This document shows positions 5,574-52,573 of a stretch of DNA of 64,000 bases, in pieces. Positions within the stretch are counted from its first letter, which is position 1. Each line of letters begins with the position of its first letter. The translations under genes were made by a program, and so were the position numbers. The stretch comes from a virus. A model generated the notes under the pieces. The model worked only from the letters and a program-made list of their open reading frames with translations. It was not told where the DNA came from and did not search any database. The stretch is from positions 1-64,000 of IMG/VR virus record IMGVR_UViG_3300036900_000256; one strand, given 5' to 3'.

Positions 5574-5594
5574 TATGTGGTTTTTGGGAGTGAG

Positions 5595-6674
5595 ATGAGC
5601 ACCGAACTGCAGGTCACCACCAGCCCGGACCTCGCCGTTGCGCAGGGTCGCGCTGTTGTGCACGACGCCGTCCGCGACCAGCTCGTCTACGAGATCGGCC
5701 GCGACCGGCTGGAGAAGCTCGACGCCGTGGTCGACCCGGCGACGTTCGACGCCGTGCTCCACTGGCTGTCCGGCGGTGAGCGGTCCTCCCTCGACACGAA
5801 GCGTCGGTACGCCGAAGACCTCACCGCGTTCGCCGAGTGGGCTGCCCTGCACCTCGGATGCCGCACGGTCTCGCTGCTGTCCGTCCTCACCTTCGAGACG
5901 ATCACCACCTGGACCATCTACGCCCGCTCGCAGGGGCTCGCCGCGCGCAGCCAACGCCGGATCCTGTCCGCCGTGTCCAGCCTGTTCAAGCACACCGCAC
6001 CCCGCGGGTGGTCCTCCCCCAACCCGGTGTCCTTCAGGTCCCACGCCCCGAAGGTCGGCACCTCGACCACCGGACGGCCTGCCGGGGCGACCCGCGTCCT
6101 GCCCGCCGACGAAGCAGTCCGCATGGGGAAGGCAGCGCGCACCGCAGAGGAGCGCCTCACGTTCGACCTGCTCTACCTGCAAGGGCTCCGCGAGTCCGAG
6201 GTGGTCAACCTCATGGCGGAGAACGTCGACCGCAACCAGTCCCCCGCGGTCCTGAACTTCCAGCGCAAGGGCGGCCAGTGGAAGCAACGCATCCTGCCCG
6301 CGGCGACGTTGCGGCACCTGGACGACCTCCTCGACGTCCGCGATGACGGGCCGGTGCTGATCGACCCGAAGACCGGCGGTGCCCGCAACCGCCACCAGTT
6401 GATCGACCTGACCCGCAGGCTCGCCCGCCGCGCCGAGATCCCCAACCCGCAGGGCGTCACCCCGCACGTTCTCCGCGCTGCGGCCATCACCGCGCTGCTC
6501 AACGGCGGCTCCCCGCTGCAGCAGGTCCAGAAGTGGGCGGACCACGCGCACGCCACCACCACCCAGGGGTACTGGGAGCGGTCGAACGGCCTGCAGCGCG
6601 ACGCCGAGCTGACGGGCAGCCTCGCGTCCATGCTGTCGGACGAAGACGGCCCGCTGCTCGGCGGCGGCGAGTGA
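5595..6674 (+). CDS. int: Tyrosine recombinase (integrase)
   Basis: Site-specific recombinase of the phage integrase family, 359 residues. An N-terminal SAM-like core-binding domain (about 50-150) is followed by the catalytic domain. Catalytic residues are visible: R199 in L-Q-G-L-R-E-S-E, K225 in the beta-hairpin Q-R-K-G-G, H291-x-x-R294 in H-V-L-R, H317/H319 in D-H-A-H-A, and nucleophile Y326 in G-Y-W. ATG 5595 is chosen because GGGAG lies upstream. It shares a 4-bp overlap with the endonuclease VII-like gene. It would integrate and excise the element; no att core could be identified. Confidence 0.88.
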   Translation: MSTELQVTTSPDLAVAQGRAVVHDAVRDQLVYEIGRDRLEKLDAVVDPATFDAVLHWLSGGERSSLDTKRRYAEDLTAFAEWAALHLGCRTVSLLSVLTFETITTWTIYARSQGLAARSQRRILSAVSSLFKHTAPRGWSSPNPVSFRSHAPKVGTSTTGRPAGATRVLPADEAVRMGKAARTAEERLTFDLLYLQGLRESEVVNLMAENVDRNQSPAVLNFQRKGGQWKQRILPAATLRHLDDLLDVRDDGPVLIDPKTGGARNRHQLIDLTRRLARRAEIPNPQGVTPHVLRAAAITALLNGGSPLQQVQKWADHAHATTTQGYWERSNGLQRDAELTGSLASMLSDEDGPLLGGGE

Positions 6675-8918: not shown

Positions 8919-9335
8919 ATGGCACTGGACCCGGACGACTCCCGCCCGCCATACGTGCAGGTCGCGGCCGCGCTGCGCGCCGAGATCCTGGTCGGGCTCC
9001 TCAAGCCGGGGGCACAACTCCCGTCGCGCGTGGAGCTGGCGAAGAAGTACGAGGTCGCTCCGATGACCGTGCAGAGCGCCCTGCGCGAGTTGCGCGACGA
9101 CGGACTGATCGTGTCCCGGCAGGGCAGCGGCGTGTTCGTCCGTAACCGTTTCCACATCGACGCAACCACCCGGATCCGCGCGGCCCGGCGAGCGCTCGAC
9201 GAGATCCACGCTCCGATGAGTGCTGCGGACAGGCGGTGCCGCGAGTGCCGGGACGCACTCGGGCGCAACCTCCCGTGGCCCTGCCGCACGTGGCAGCAGA
9301 TCGCGCCCGTGCTGGACGATCAGGACGAGACCTGA
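8919..9335 (+). CDS. GntR-family regulator
   Basis: 138-residue regulator. The N-terminal winged helix-turn-helix (about 10-78) is typical of GntR: Y-V-Q-V-A-A-A-L-R-A-E-I, P-S-R-V-E-L-A-K-K-Y-E-V, and V-S-R-Q-G-S-G-V-F-V. The C-terminus is short, has C-R-E-C plus a third cysteine, and lacks a full FadR/UTRA effector domain. Such truncated regulators are common in actinomycete mobile elements, and it may control the recombinase operon or the opposed modification cluster. Its 3' end overlaps the convergent gene at 9320. Confidence 0.75.
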   Translation: MALDPDDSRPPYVQVAAALRAEILVGLLKPGAQLPSRVELAKKYEVAPMTVQSALRELRDDGLIVSRQGSGVFVRNRFHIDATTRIRAARRALDEIHAPMSAADRRCRECRDALGRNLPWPCRTWQQIAPVLDDQDET

Positions 9336-46846: not shown

Positions 46847-46915
46847 ATGCTCCCGGGCACGCACACCCTGGGCAACACGGCCCGCACCTCCGCGATGGCG
46901 GGGAGCGCGCCGTGA
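46847..46915 (+). CDS. Leader-like peptide, 22 aa
   Basis: ATG 46847 after GGAAGG. The stop overlaps GTG 46912 of the next gene, so it may serve translational coupling. No other feature. Confidence 0.3.
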   Translation: MLPGTHTLGNTARTSAMAGSAP

Positions 46916-47193
46916 CCGGCCTGACGATCCTCGCCCGCCGCCTGCTGTGGTCGTGCTCCTACCACGCCCACCTGGCCGCCCTCGCGGTCCTCGACACGGT
47001 GCGTTACCTGCTCACCGCCGCCACCCTGCTCACCCACCGGGCACATACCGCGGTCGCCGAGCACGGCGGAACCGTCGCCGACGTCCTGGACGACGGCCGC
47101 GCCTGGGCCGACCGGGCCGAGTTCGACCGCGCCAAGTACCTGCGGCTGGTCGACCAGCTGCTCAACGGAATCGACCTGAAGGAGAACCCGTGA
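46912..47193 (+). CDS. Small Spd-like protein, 93 aa
   Basis: The N-terminal half is hydrophobic (A-A-L-A-V-L-D-T-V-R-Y-L-L-T-A-A-T-L-L) and the C-terminal half helical and charged. Immediately upstream of the translocase operon, where Streptomyces-type plasmids and AICEs carry small spread/transfer genes. The call is by context. Confidence 0.45.
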   Translation: MTGLTILARRLLWSCSYHAHLAALAVLDTVRYLLTAATLLTHRAHTAVAEHGGTVADVLDDGRAWADRAEFDRAKYLRLVDQLLNGIDLKENP

Positions 47194-47552
47194 CCACCGC
47201 CGCCGAGAGGGTGTCGGAGCTCGCCGACGCGGAGCTGTTCACCTCGACCGCCCTGCACGACTTCGTGATCAAGGTCCGGGACCTGTGCCGGGACGTGGCC
47301 TACATCCTGCAGTTCCAGGCCGACACGCTGCAGGCGTCATTGGCGACCCTGCCCGTCGTGGGCTCGAAGTACGGGTCGCTGGCCTCCAGGGTCCGCGCCC
47401 GTTCGGTCGCGTGGTGCATGCGGTCCGCGGCCGAGGCGATCCAGCACGCCGGGAAGTTGACCGTGAAGGCGTGGTCCCTGTTCCAGAAGTACTACGTCGC
47501 CGAACAACAGAAACCGGCCGCCGGGAAGAAGCAGTTCCAAGTCAACTCCTGA
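47190..47552 (+). CDS. Hypothetical protein, 120 aa, in transfer module
   Basis: GTG 47190 overlapping the upstream stop. Helical, with F-V-I-K-V-R-D-L-C-R-D-V-A-Y-I-L-Q-F and a basic C-terminus. Directly precedes the TraB-like gene. Function unknown, presumably linked to transfer. Confidence 0.5.
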   Translation: MTTAAERVSELADAELFTSTALHDFVIKVRDLCRDVAYILQFQADTLQASLATLPVVGSKYGSLASRVRARSVAWCMRSAAEAIQHAGKLTVKAWSLFQKYYVAEQQKPAAGKKQFQVNS

Positions 47553-47569: not shown

Positions 47570-49540
47570 GTGACGAAGAAGCATCTGGCGAAGGCCGCGC
47601 AGGAGCGGGCGGTGGCCCAGGCCACCAGTCGCGGTTCCGTGCTGGTGCGCCCGACGATGGCGCTGGTCGGCGAGCTGGGGCTGTCGGTGGCGCTGTGGTG
47701 CGCCGCGTCGCCGGAGTCGCTGCCGTGGATGACACCCGCCCTGTCGCTGTCCACGGCGGCGCTGACCGCGCTGGTGTGGCACACGGGCCGGGACCAGACC
47801 CCGGTCGGACGCATCCTCGGGGTGGGGTCCACCGTGCTGACCGGGGCGCACCTGGTCACCGCGACCATCCTGGGCCCGTTCACGTCGCCGCTGTGGGGGG
47901 TGTGGTGCTGGTTGGGCGGCACGACCGCGGCGGCGTGGATGTACCGGCTGTGGATCGCCCGTGACGACGCCACTGTCGAGGGCGCCAAGCGGCGCGTGTC
48001 GATGTGGGACGAGGCGGCGGAAAGGGCCGGTGGGGCGTTGGAGGGCTCCCGGTTCCGGGCGAAGGAGGCCACCGCCGACCGGATGGCCGGGCCGCTGGAG
48101 TTGGAACCGGGGCAGACGGTGAAGGACGCGCAGATGAGTCTGGCCGCGTTGGAGAGCGTGCTGGGCCTGCCGCCCGGTGGTGCCCGCCTGACCCGCGACC
48201 CGGGCCATGCCGCCCGCGGCGAGCTGACGTTGGTGCGGTCGAACGTGCTGAAGGAGGACCTCGGCTACCGGGGTCCGTCGGCGCTGGGCGGTACCCCGGC
48301 CGCGCCGTACCGGGTGGGTCGTTACGAGCACGGCCGGGACGCGGTGCTGCCGTTGCAGGTCCCCGGCCGCGGCGAGGTGCATCTGATCATCCAGGGGATG
48401 ACCGGCAGCGGGAAGACCAAGGGCGCGCACCAGCTGTTCGCCGAGGAATTCACCCGCGTCGACACGTACACGATCTACGTGGACACGGTGAAGGGCGCCC
48501 AGTCGTTGGGCCCGCTGGCGCGGGGGATCCGGTGGGCGATGCGGACCGAGGCCGAGGCGCACGCGCTGATGAAGGTGCTCAAGGCGCGGGTCATCCCGGT
48601 GCTGGCCCAATACCTCGGGTCGCGTGGGCTGGAGAACTGGGAGCCGGGCTGCGGTTATCCGCGTATCCGGATCCACGTAGAGGAGGGCGCCGGGCTGTTC
48701 CTGGGCAACGACGCGTTCATCCGGGTCATGGAGCGTGCCCGGTCGGTCGGTGTGCAGGTCACGCTGTCCGCGCAGCGGTTCTCCTACACCACTCTGCCGG
48801 TGGCGGCGCGCTCCCAGTTCGGCGCGGTGCTGGCCTTCGGGGTCGCCGAGGTCGAGGACGCGAAGTTCGCCATGCCGGACAAGGTGTTCGAGGCCGGTGC
48901 GGACCCGTCGCAGTGGGGCAACAACATGCCCGGCCTCGCCTACCTGGTCGCCCCCGGTGTGGAGGAGAACGACTATGTGGTGCCGCTGCGGGTGGAGAAG
49001 ATCGCGCGTGCCGAGTTGGAGGTTCTGGCCGAGTACGCCCGCGTGCACGGTGCCGAGTTGCCGTCGTTCGTCGCGGAGGCGTTCGGCGAGTTGTACACGT
49101 CGCGGGTTCCGGTCGAGCAGATGCTCGCCGAGGGCGCGGTCGTGTTCGCGGCCGACGAGGACGAGGACTGGGACGACGAGGAGGACGAGGAGGACGAGGA
49201 CATGCGGGAACCCCCGTGGCAGCCGTCGGAAGCCGACCCGGAGCCGGACGTGCAGCCGGACATCGACGACCCGATCACCGCGGTGCCGGAGATGCAGTTG
49301 GGCGACCGGCCGGTGAAGCTGCCGCCGGTGCAGGCGCGGGAGATGTTCGAGGCGCGGTTGCGCAGTCTGCAGGAGTCGGGCGCGTCGGCGGTGACGGTGA
49401 AGGATCTGACGCCGGTGGCGTTGGAGGCGGGGATGACCGCGGCGTGGTTGTACAAGTTGCTGCGGGAGCGGGTCGACTCGGGTCATCTGGAGCGCACAGA
49501 CGCGGGGTGGCGGTTCGCCCGTGCCCTCACCAACGCATGA
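47570..49540 (+). CDS. TraB/FtsK-like DNA translocase
   Basis: 656 residues. Three or four N-terminal membrane segments (within 30-125) are followed by an FtsK/SpoIIIE-type ATPase with Walker A G-M-T-G-S-G-K-T (276-283), a Walker-B-like I-R-I-H-V-E-E-G and T-L-S-A-Q-R-F, then an acidic linker (D/E run near 520-545). The C-terminal winged helix (V-K-D-L-T-P-V-A-L-E-A-G-M-T) resembles the gamma-like DNA-reading domain. This is the architecture of actinomycete conjugation proteins that move double-stranded DNA between hyphae. GGAGG precedes GTG 47570. A repeat array follows the stop directly. Confidence 0.85.
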   Translation: MTKKHLAKAAQERAVAQATSRGSVLVRPTMALVGELGLSVALWCAASPESLPWMTPALSLSTAALTALVWHTGRDQTPVGRILGVGSTVLTGAHLVTATILGPFTSPLWGVWCWLGGTTAAAWMYRLWIARDDATVEGAKRRVSMWDEAAERAGGALEGSRFRAKEATADRMAGPLELEPGQTVKDAQMSLAALESVLGLPPGGARLTRDPGHAARGELTLVRSNVLKEDLGYRGPSALGGTPAAPYRVGRYEHGRDAVLPLQVPGRGEVHLIIQGMTGSGKTKGAHQLFAEEFTRVDTYTIYVDTVKGAQSLGPLARGIRWAMRTEAEAHALMKVLKARVIPVLAQYLGSRGLENWEPGCGYPRIRIHVEEGAGLFLGNDAFIRVMERARSVGVQVTLSAQRFSYTTLPVAARSQFGAVLAFGVAEVEDAKFAMPDKVFEAGADPSQWGNNMPGLAYLVAPGVEENDYVVPLRVEKIARAELEVLAEYARVHGAELPSFVAEAFGELYTSRVPVEQMLAEGAVVFAADEDEDWDDEEDEEDEDMREPPWQPSEADPEPDVQPDIDDPITAVPEMQLGDRPVKLPPVQAREMFEARLRSLQESGASAVTVKDLTPVALEAGMTAAWLYKLLRERVDSGHLERTDAGWRFARALTNA

Positions 49541-49564: not shown

Positions 49565-49739
49565 CCGTGACAACCCGCAGACCTGTCACGGGCGCCGAGA
49601 CGGACACAGAGTCCCTGCTCAGGGCCGTGACACCGCCGTGACACCGCCCGTGACAGCCGACGTGACAGCCCGTGAACGGCCGTGACACCGCCGTGAATCG
49701 GCCCGTGACAGCCGTGACAACCCCGTGAATCCCGTGACA
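49565..49739. repeat. Phased CCGTGACA array (possible clt/TRS or iteron site)
   Basis: CCGTGACA occurs exactly at 49565, 49625, 49636, 49648, 49680, 49703, 49712 and 49732, and inverted at 49584-49591. Degenerate copies (CCGTGA or CGTGACA) fill 49660, 49670, 49691 and 49723. From 49625 the unit spacing is 9-12 bp, one helical turn. It is non-coding and starts 24 bp after the translocase gene. In plasmids of the pSVH1 type, TraB binds 8-bp repeats in a locus placed like this. Confidence 0.75.
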
Positions 49740-49779
49740 GCCGCCCAGTCACGGCCGTGACCAGCAGAAAGGCAACCCC

Positions 49780-51177
49780 GTGACCACCGCCCCCACCGCG
49801 CCCGAAGGCGGCTGGACGAGCCGACGCGCCCGCCACCGGGCGGAGCGCGCGCACGCCATGAACCTCCACACCGACGCCCGCAAGAAGCGCGCCGCCCAGA
49901 CCGCGACCGAACGCGCCGCCGGGCACGCCGAGGACCCGATGAGCTGGCCGCTGCGGATCCTCGCCACCGCGGTCGCCCTGGTCGTACTCGCCGTCGCGGT
50001 CGTGATCGGCGTCGTCGTCATCGGCGCCCAGATCGGGTTCTACGAGACCAACCTCACCGTCAAGACCATCAGCTTCGCCGCGCTCGGCATCGACACCCCG
50101 CTCGACCTGCCGACCTTCACCCCGCTCGCGACCGAAGGCGTCGTGTGGGCGACCACCCTGCTCGCGGTGGTGATGGTGCTGCTCAACCGGACCGCGACCC
50201 TGTGGACGCGGTCGATGTGGTTTTTCGCGTCGATCGCCGCGTTCGTGAACACGTGGCACGCGGTATTCGAGGAAAAGGATCTGTTCGGCGGTGTGCTCCG
50301 GGGCGGGCTTTCCCTCGCGGGTCCTTTCCTGGTGCATCTGTTCATTTTGTGGTGCCGTCATCTGCGGACCGGCCGGACGCTGGCGCAGGCGCGTATCGAC
50401 ACGGCTGTCCGCTGGGACGGAATCCGTTCGGTCCTATTGGCGCTGGGGCTTCTGCTCGGCCGTCATGTGGCGCACCCCGTCATCGCGGCCCGCGCGTTGG
50501 GTTACCGGCTCGGCGTGGGCAACTGGTCCTACACCGACGCGTGGGCGGCCGCGTCGGTCGGTTACCGGCGTCGCGTGCAGGCCCGGCTCGACGGGGCGGA
50601 CACCAACCGGCCCGGTCGCCTCCGGAGTGCGCGACCGGAGGCGACCGGCAGCGGCGACACCGACGACCGACCGACCGACCCGGCCGCCGTGGTCGAGGAC
50701 CCGCCTCCGCCGGTCGGCCTGCGCCCGGCGTTCACCGACGAGGAGGCCGAGTTGCTGGTCGCCCGGCTCATGGACCCGACCTTGACGGTCGCCGCGTTCG
50801 ATGACCAGCCCGAACCGGCGACCGGAACAGGCGACCGAGAGGCGACCGAGAGGCGACCGGACGCGACCGACGCAGCGACCGGACCGGCGACCGGCACGCG
50901 ACCGAAGGCGACCGAACGCACGACCGACACCAGGGCGGGAGGCGACCGGTCGCGACCGGTCGGCCGCGACCGGAGGCGACCGACGACACGACCGGACACG
51001 ACCGGAGTCGACGTCTCGGACCTACTCCCGGTCGCCCGCGAGGTGGCGACCGAACTGGGCGACCGGCTCAGTCGGGACGCGCTCTTGGAGGGGCTGCGGT
51101 TGCGGGGCCTGTCGGTCGGTGGTCTGCGTCGGGCCGCGATCTACAACGCCGTGAAGGACGAACGGGGAAAGGCATGA
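49780..51177 (+). CDS. DUF2637/Spd-like membrane protein carrying an internal repeat array
   Basis: 465 residues. A basic N-terminus precedes four membrane segments (about 58-80, 112-130, 148-168, 170-190), as in DUF2637/SpdB-type proteins that accompany TraB in plasmid spread. From about 280 the protein is a low-complexity T/R/D/P/A linker, and the end is a helical domain (R-E-V-A-T-E-L-G-D-R-L-S-R-D-A-L) like a small winged helix. The linker DNA (50818-50982) is an iterated GCGACCG array, described separately. GTG start. Confidence 0.7.
   Translation: MTTAPTAPEGGWTSRRARHRAERAHAMNLHTDARKKRAAQTATERAAGHAEDPMSWPLRILATAVALVVLAVAVVIGVVVIGAQIGFYETNLTVKTISFAALGIDTPLDLPTFTPLATEGVVWATTLLAVVMVLLNRTATLWTRSMWFFASIAAFVNTWHAVFEEKDLFGGVLRGGLSLAGPFLVHLFILWCRHLRTGRTLAQARIDTAVRWDGIRSVLLALGLLLGRHVAHPVIAARALGYRLGVGNWSYTDAWAAASVGYRRRVQARLDGADTNRPGRLRSARPEATGSGDTDDRPTDPAAVVEDPPPPVGLRPAFTDEEAELLVARLMDPTLTVAAFDDQPEPATGTGDREATERRPDATDAATGPATGTRPKATERTTDTRAGGDRSRPVGRDRRRPTTRPDTTGVDVSDLLPVAREVATELGDRLSRDALLEGLRLRGLSVGGLRRAAIYNAVKDERGKA
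50818..50982. repeat. Phased GCGACCG array inside a coding sequence
   Basis: Thirteen exact GCGACCG copies at 50818, 50831, 50842, 50853, 50863, 50875, 50887, 50898, 50908, 50942, 50952, 50966 and 50976, mostly 10-14 bp apart; further copies at 50631, 50641, 51046 and 51059. They fall in all three codon phases, so they read as A-T, G-D-R, R-D-R or R-P. The repetition is therefore a property of the DNA, not of a peptide repeat. Confidence 0.75.
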
Positions 51178-52318: not shown

Positions 52319-52573
52319 TCAGGCGGTGCTGCGAGCCCGGGTCCGCGCGTTACGGCGCTTCAACGACCGACGCTCCTCCTCCGACGTCCCACCGAACACA
52401 CCCGAGTCGATCCCCGCATCCAACGCGAACGCCAGGCAATCGCTGATGACGGGACACCGCCCGCACACGTCCTTCGCCAGGTCGATCTGCACCAGCGCGG
52501 GGCCGGTCGAACCGACCGGGTGGAACAACTCCGGATCTTCATCCCTGCACGCGGCTTCATGTCGCCAGTCCAT
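52319..52573 (-). CDS. WhiB-family regulator
   Basis: 84-residue iron-sulfur regulator with the four conserved cysteines C9, C37, C40 and C46 (C-x2-C-x5-C after the first), the G-V-F-G-G turn at 58-62 and a basic C-terminus (K-R-R-N-A-R-T-R-A-R) for DNA contact. GGAGGG precedes the ATG. Phage WhiB proteins can act on host sigma-factor-dependent promoters. Second from the 3' end of the early-type operon. Confidence 0.85.
   Translation of the reverse strand: MDWRHEAACRDEDPELFHPVGSTGPALVQIDLAKDVCGRCPVISDCLAFALDAGIDSGVFGGTSEEERRSLKRRNARTRARSTA

Follow-up and report, generated by a model that had tools for sequence, protein, structure and literature searches.

A cluster of CCGTGACA repeats in the 239-bp non-coding gap between the stop of a traB-like gene (49540) and the next start (49780) is, with high likelihood, the clt (the locus that acts in cis in transfer) of a temperate phage's TraB-type conjugation module; by analogy with plasmids, TraB would dock there through its winged helix, load as a hexamer and pump double-stranded DNA. 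The window referred to throughout is the whole stretch of 64,000 nucleotides that was analysed, positions 1 to 64,000 of the virus record IMGVR_UViG_3300036900_000256, and coordinates are those of the window unless another record is named. Judged from sequence comparisons, the array is very probably a docking site recognised by the DNA-reading domain of the adjoining pump, which resembles the pumps by which Streptomyces plasmids pass from cell to cell. Our best reading is further that its word is one not found among the published clt words and that the module is exchanged by phages.

The repeat array

Eight exact copies of CCGTGACA, an 8-bp unit, are present on the plus strand (49565, 49625, 49636, 49648, 49680, 49703, 49712 and 49732), the first of them 24 nt past the traB stop, and one exact copy is found on the minus strand (49584-49591). 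Degenerate copies are ACGTGACA at 49660, CCGTGAAC at 49670, CCGTGAAT at 49691 and 49723 and CCGTGACC at 49755, together with a degenerate inverted copy, CCGTGACT, at 49747-49754. A preliminary description of this DNA had counted eight direct, one inverted and several degenerate copies at 9-12 bp spacing in a non-coding gap, all of which were recovered in our recount; it had placed the array at 49565-49739, where the start is right but the end is not, as degenerate copies reach ~49762. From 49625 onward the spacings are 11, 12, 12, 10, 10, 11, 12, 9, 11 and 9. The proposed helical phasing also holds up, with a Rayleigh R of 0.75 at 10.5 bp (best period 10.8), a value that 2.9% of placements drawn at random under an equal minimum spacing also reach.

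The nine exact copies in 239 bp should be compared with an expectation of ~0.01-0.02 (P 6e-22 to 9e-25). The rest of the 74,452-base record holds 2 exact copies vs 2.8-5.7 expected, so that the word is enriched in the gap and occurs elsewhere only in chance number. Over the entire record, the search for 7-mers that cluster locally returned the CCGTGACA array, an array of GCGACCG 1 kb downstream of it and a single weak cluster rich in GC, and nothing else.

In TraB-type conjugation the clt/TRS is bound through helix alpha3 of the winged helix and is required in cis for transfer. Of the characteristics of such a locus, the CCGTGACA array has the short direct repeats adjoining traB and the unit of ~7-9 bp repeated near one helical turn, and the predicted winged helix would be its reader.

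The translocase and its neighbours

The features of the module are collected in Table 1.

Table 1. Features of the module and viral records that pair a TraB relative with phage genes
Feature	Position	Strand	Evidence and remarks
Small upstream gene	46912..47193	+	Overlaps the 47190..47552 gene; probably same operon, going by open reading frame and overlap only
Small gene directly before traB	47190..47552	+	Kept beside traB in G001 and L097 (46% identity)
traB-like FtsK/SpoIIIE-type dsDNA translocase, 656 aa	47570..49540	+	tblastn, phrog_24831, FtsK motor profile
Walker A, GMTGSGKT, in traB-like gene	48395-48418	+	
C-terminal winged-helix domain, ~residues 586-650	49325..49519	+	AlphaFold model
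Predicted recognition helix AAWLYKLLRERVDS, residues 624-637	49439..49480	+	Third helix of model; residues co-vary with array word
CCGTGACA array	49565..49762	+	8 direct exact, 1 inverted exact, ~6 degenerate, 9-12 bp; proposed clt/TRS-type TraB docking site
spd-like gene	49780..51177	+	Membrane N-terminus, repeat-rich linker and C-terminal HTH-like end, judged from sequence
GCGACCG array inside spd-like gene	50631..51065	+	16-19 copies in all three frames, spaced mostly 10-14 bp
TraB relative + portal gene	G003, G012, G013, G016, G017		Loci L078, L087, L088, L091, L092, in the same order
TraB relative + terminase gene	G014, G015		Loci L089, L090

By tblastn the window TraB matched 51 plasmids, with coverage of up to 92% at ~30% identity. 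The plasmid matches come from Streptomyces, Nonomuraea, Thermobispora and Amycolatopsis, and the TraB proteins of pSN22 and pJV1 are ~30% identical to it. The protein matches phrog_24831 (function unknown) with 318 bits, and the TraB family profile finds FtsK motor structures with E 1e-17. The Pfam search with the window TraB gave no match, nor did tblastn against the INPHARED phages; a viral scan with the single protein likewise found nothing, and the alignment query alone reached the relatives. The last 70 residues were modelled by AlphaFold as a winged helix in the order H-H-H-b-b, with a core pLDDT above 90. The fold search (Foldseek/VIA) returned generic winged helices only, and the absence of FtsK gamma from its list is uninformative either way. 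By its sequence the protein belongs in the TraB family: it has an FtsK-like motor, a Walker A motif, an apparent membrane N-terminus, a predicted C-terminal winged helix and full-length homology.

Arrays next to traB in other elements

A set of 105 distinct TraB loci was gathered, to which plasmids, genomes and viral contigs all contributed. In 84 of the 104 relatives the traB stop is followed by an array built on one of seven core words, against 13 of 1273 (1%) random control segments, the seven-word panel having been picked from the same loci in which the arrays were counted; in the other 20 no word was recognised. The first copy lies at a median of 14 nt past the stop, and the units are for the most part spaced 8-13 bp, a further peak lying near 23. 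The arrays include that of pJV1 itself (L010), where the published clt repeats were recovered after traB, and arrays of the CTGACACC type contain the pWTY27 clt word TGACACC. The clt-like position next to traB that the preliminary description had claimed is kept in most of the relatives; of the outcomes which it had named as refuting, absence of enrichment and loss of the array in relatives were looked for and did not occur.

The orientation of the arrays relative to traB varies. The window's word is found inverted (TGTCACGG) after traB in L014, L021, L023, L026, L029, L031 and L035, together with a helix of the form xxAWxYKVL; whole arrays can be flipped relative to traB. As for the new recognition specificity suggested earlier, CCGTGACA is indeed not among the published clt words found, but the inverted word is shared with relatives in Actinomadura and Streptosporangium.

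The pJV1 clt has nine published repeats, CCGCACA[C/G][C/G] (PMC3583192), and pWTY27 has TGACACC repeats at the 3' end of its translocase (TraA) gene, which are footprinted by the protein and lie in a region needed for transfer (PMC3583192). The Streptomyces systems of pJV1 and pSN22 resemble the window in full-length TraB homology and in direct repeats right after traB; they differ in that the window has the word CCGTGACA, a helix AAWLYK instead of DRSWVS, ~30% protein identity and a phage genome. pWTY27, which was matched by its published word, shares the position of the repeats by the 3' end of the translocase gene, whereas its word is TGACACC and it is a theta plasmid without particle genes, unlike the window phage. 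The TraB of pSVH1 with its 8-bp TRS is a close known system, likened here by description.

The array word and the recognition helix

The residue two positions past an invariant W in the helix goes with the class of word. It is Y, Q, M or H at 36 of 37 loci with GTGxC-type words (the GTGAC, GTGGC, TTGCA and GGTGA classes), S at 39 of 44 loci with CTGAC or CGCACA words, and R at all 4 loci with GAACAG. When motor clusters are drawn at 40% and 50% identity, 94-98% of the pairs inside them show agreement of helix with word vs 66-73% after shuffling, a level reached by 0 of 1000 shuffles; in clusters of 60% identity the test is weaker, as 12 of 1000 shuffles reach the observed value. When relatives with at least 40% motor identity are excluded, the word is predicted correctly by the nearest helix in 45% of cases and by the nearest motor in 18%, with 8% expected by chance. 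The global Mantel test is weak (partial rho 0.16, reached by 0 of 500 permutations) because distant pairs carry little signal. On the tree of the TraB body the word follows clades; its class changes only ~5 times and there is one independent pair, so that the association rests on few independent events. In these comparisons the array word co-varies with the recognition helix and follows it better than the motor domain, with few independent changes on the tree.

The closest relatives offer one such case. TraB of L076, the locus in the viral record G001, is 66% identical to the window protein, and that of L097, from a cellular genome, ~65%. In the body tree the window and L097 are joined with support 96/96 and a grouping of L076 with L097 is rejected (p-AU 0.014). 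The winged helices of L076 and L097 are 82% identical, those of the window and the others 48-52%, and L076 and L097 have the word GGGTGA in common where the window has CCGTGACA; the L076 counterpart of CCGTGACA is GGGTGACA. The winged-helix tree does not discriminate between groupings of the trio (p-AU 0.34), and either domain exchange or fast change on the window branch may lie behind the pattern; the C-terminal branch leading to the window is 0.80 long vs 0.09 and 0.15 for the other two. By whichever of these routes, helix and word have moved together in this trio.

Other explanations of the array

An operator is the first alternative to be weighed: the array would bind a transcriptional regulator, either the GntR protein encoded at 8919-9335 or a host factor, controlling the spd-like gene. 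It does lie immediately before the start codon of the spd-like gene, a codon that itself falls inside a CCGTGACC copy, and besides the GntR gene in this record there are GntR repressors near traB on plasmids. We nevertheless consider an operator unlikely, as the array stays after traB while the downstream genes differ, its word follows the TraB helix, its 9-15 units are far above the usual operator number, and the arrays of pJV1 and pWTY27 act as clt.

Helically phased direct repeats are typical also of replication iterons and of partition centromeres, either of which the phage might use in a plasmid state. This is very improbable in view of the neighbours, which are a translocase and a membrane protein, with no replication initiator or ParA/ParB gene recognised adjoining the array, and of the fact that the array is kept with traB in relatives. 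Slighter still is the probability that the copies are KOPS-like sites which orient a segregation translocase and do not form a transfer locus. An FtsK-family protein with a C-terminal winged helix would suit such sites, but the copies are packed in one gap, the 2 outside it in 74 kb are at chance level and form no genome-wide polar set, and in relatives whole arrays may face either way with respect to traB. That the repeat has no function, being decayed or a low-complexity product of chance, is hardly credible, even with the background raised by GC-rich actinobacterial DNA and GTGAC start-codon contexts, given a P below 1e-20, an array kept in 84 of 104 relatives and its persistence with a coherent different word in L076 and L097, where the gap has been rewritten.

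A phage carrying the module

The record, an IMG/VR virus of 74,452 bases, is a temperate siphophage with packaging, capsid, tail, lysis and integrase genes. The window contains terminase, portal, major capsid, tape measure, endolysin and integrase, and the record past the window encodes RecT, a YqaJ nuclease, an HTH repressor and a second integrase; the capsid protein is ~50% identical to Streptomyces phage capsids. This full set of phage structural genes sets the record apart from an actinomycete integrative conjugative element (AICE), which has Int, Rep and Tra modules but lacks such genes. The traB module is situated between the lysis genes and a leftward-read block of small genes, and hence inside the phage, not beside it; the preliminary description had been made without knowledge that the element is a phage.

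Some further features of the record may be mentioned. The two tyrosine integrase genes, at 5577-6674 of the window and ~72516-73706 of the record (L004:17517-18707), are different. A 31-bp direct repeat, itself a GC-rich hairpin, is found near both record ends (G000 10-40 and 74422-74452) and may reflect circularity or a repeated terminator. A WhiB-family regulator is encoded near the module (52319-52573), and a 62% relative of it comes just after the spd-like gene of G001. The tRNA search in the window and the record tail found none.

The two ends of the L076 record (G001) share a 127-bp overlap, and the record encodes an integrase, helicase, capsid, portal, tape measure and endolysin of its own. 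Its spd-like gene after traB is 67-86% identical to that of the window, while its particle genes are not recognisably related to those of the window except for a 22% capsid match; a related module among unrelated particle genes makes it appear that the module has moved between phages. Among the 17 related viral records, 7 besides G001 pair a TraB relative with phage genes (Table 1), so the association recurs. Several of these seven carry array words of their own (GAACAG, CTGACT, TTGCAC and GTGGCA).

Plasmid-phages with tra function are known: pZL12, whose transfer needs a tra gene (PMC3583192), and PhiNon1, described as similar to pZL12 (PMC3583192, PMC5431353). In view of this precedent, the presence of such a module in a phage is unusual, not unprecedented. 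Compared by description only, both are like the window phage in being phage genomes of actinomycetes, with a plasmid way of life besides, and differ in that an array of this kind is not described in these papers (PMC3583192, PMC5431353).

The spd-like gene and a second array

The spd-like protein had no match in Pfam or PHROG. The GCGACCG word within its gene is kept also in the spd-like gene of G001 (L093:629-908), and in L097 the gene after traB has CCCGACC (/ACCCGA) in all three frames, replacing GCGACCG. The frame independence of GCGACCG points to selection on DNA, and a likely reader would be the HTH-like C-terminus of the same spd-like protein.

Similar clusters were seen in other elements. 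In L083 (11012-11311) there are ~21 CGCTCG at 11/23 bp spacing ~1.2 kb after traB, mostly outside long ORFs and with a tandem 34-bp unit. Elements of Sphaerisporangium and Herbidospora have, upstream of traB, frame-independent arrays of GGTCGC, the reverse complement of GCGACC (L051:2062-2339, L085:1805-2082 and L061:2226-2492). The apparent second arrays of the pSN22 type and the first spd-gene cluster of Thermobispora do not count as DNA arrays, since their copies keep frame and reflect protein repeats.

A model for transfer and its implications

The model postulates that the C-terminal winged helices of TraB dock on successive CCGTGACA units, which are about one helical turn apart and thus on about one face of the DNA. 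The docked protein would be loaded as a hexamer on the phage genome at the array, and the FtsK-like motor would then pump double-stranded DNA across a membrane or hyphal septum, with the spd-like membrane protein encoded downstream helping it to spread between compartments. For binding, loading and transfer we infer this from work on pSVH1, pJV1 and pWTY27 (PMC3583192, PMC4170104); the cargo would presumably be the phage genome in a circular or plasmid-like form.

A wider version of the model can be put forward tentatively, and we regard it as possible but doubtful. It says that a complete module for dsDNA conjugation, free of any relaxase, is part of temperate actinophages, is swapped among otherwise unrelated phages and has two phased arrays, one for docking of TraB, with a word that changes with the winged helix, the other in the spd gene and read by the C-terminal domain of its own product. 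If this were true, such phages would spread as particles and also by conjugation. The main reading by itself adds the genomes of temperate phages to the plasmids and AICEs in which TraB/clt conjugation is known. The ~85 array/helix pairs, with the trio in which motor and winged helix are discordant, make a natural data set for reading the TraB recognition code. That code has to do with why elements living in one cell mobilise each other in some cases and not in others, and with the question whether conjugation can move phages.
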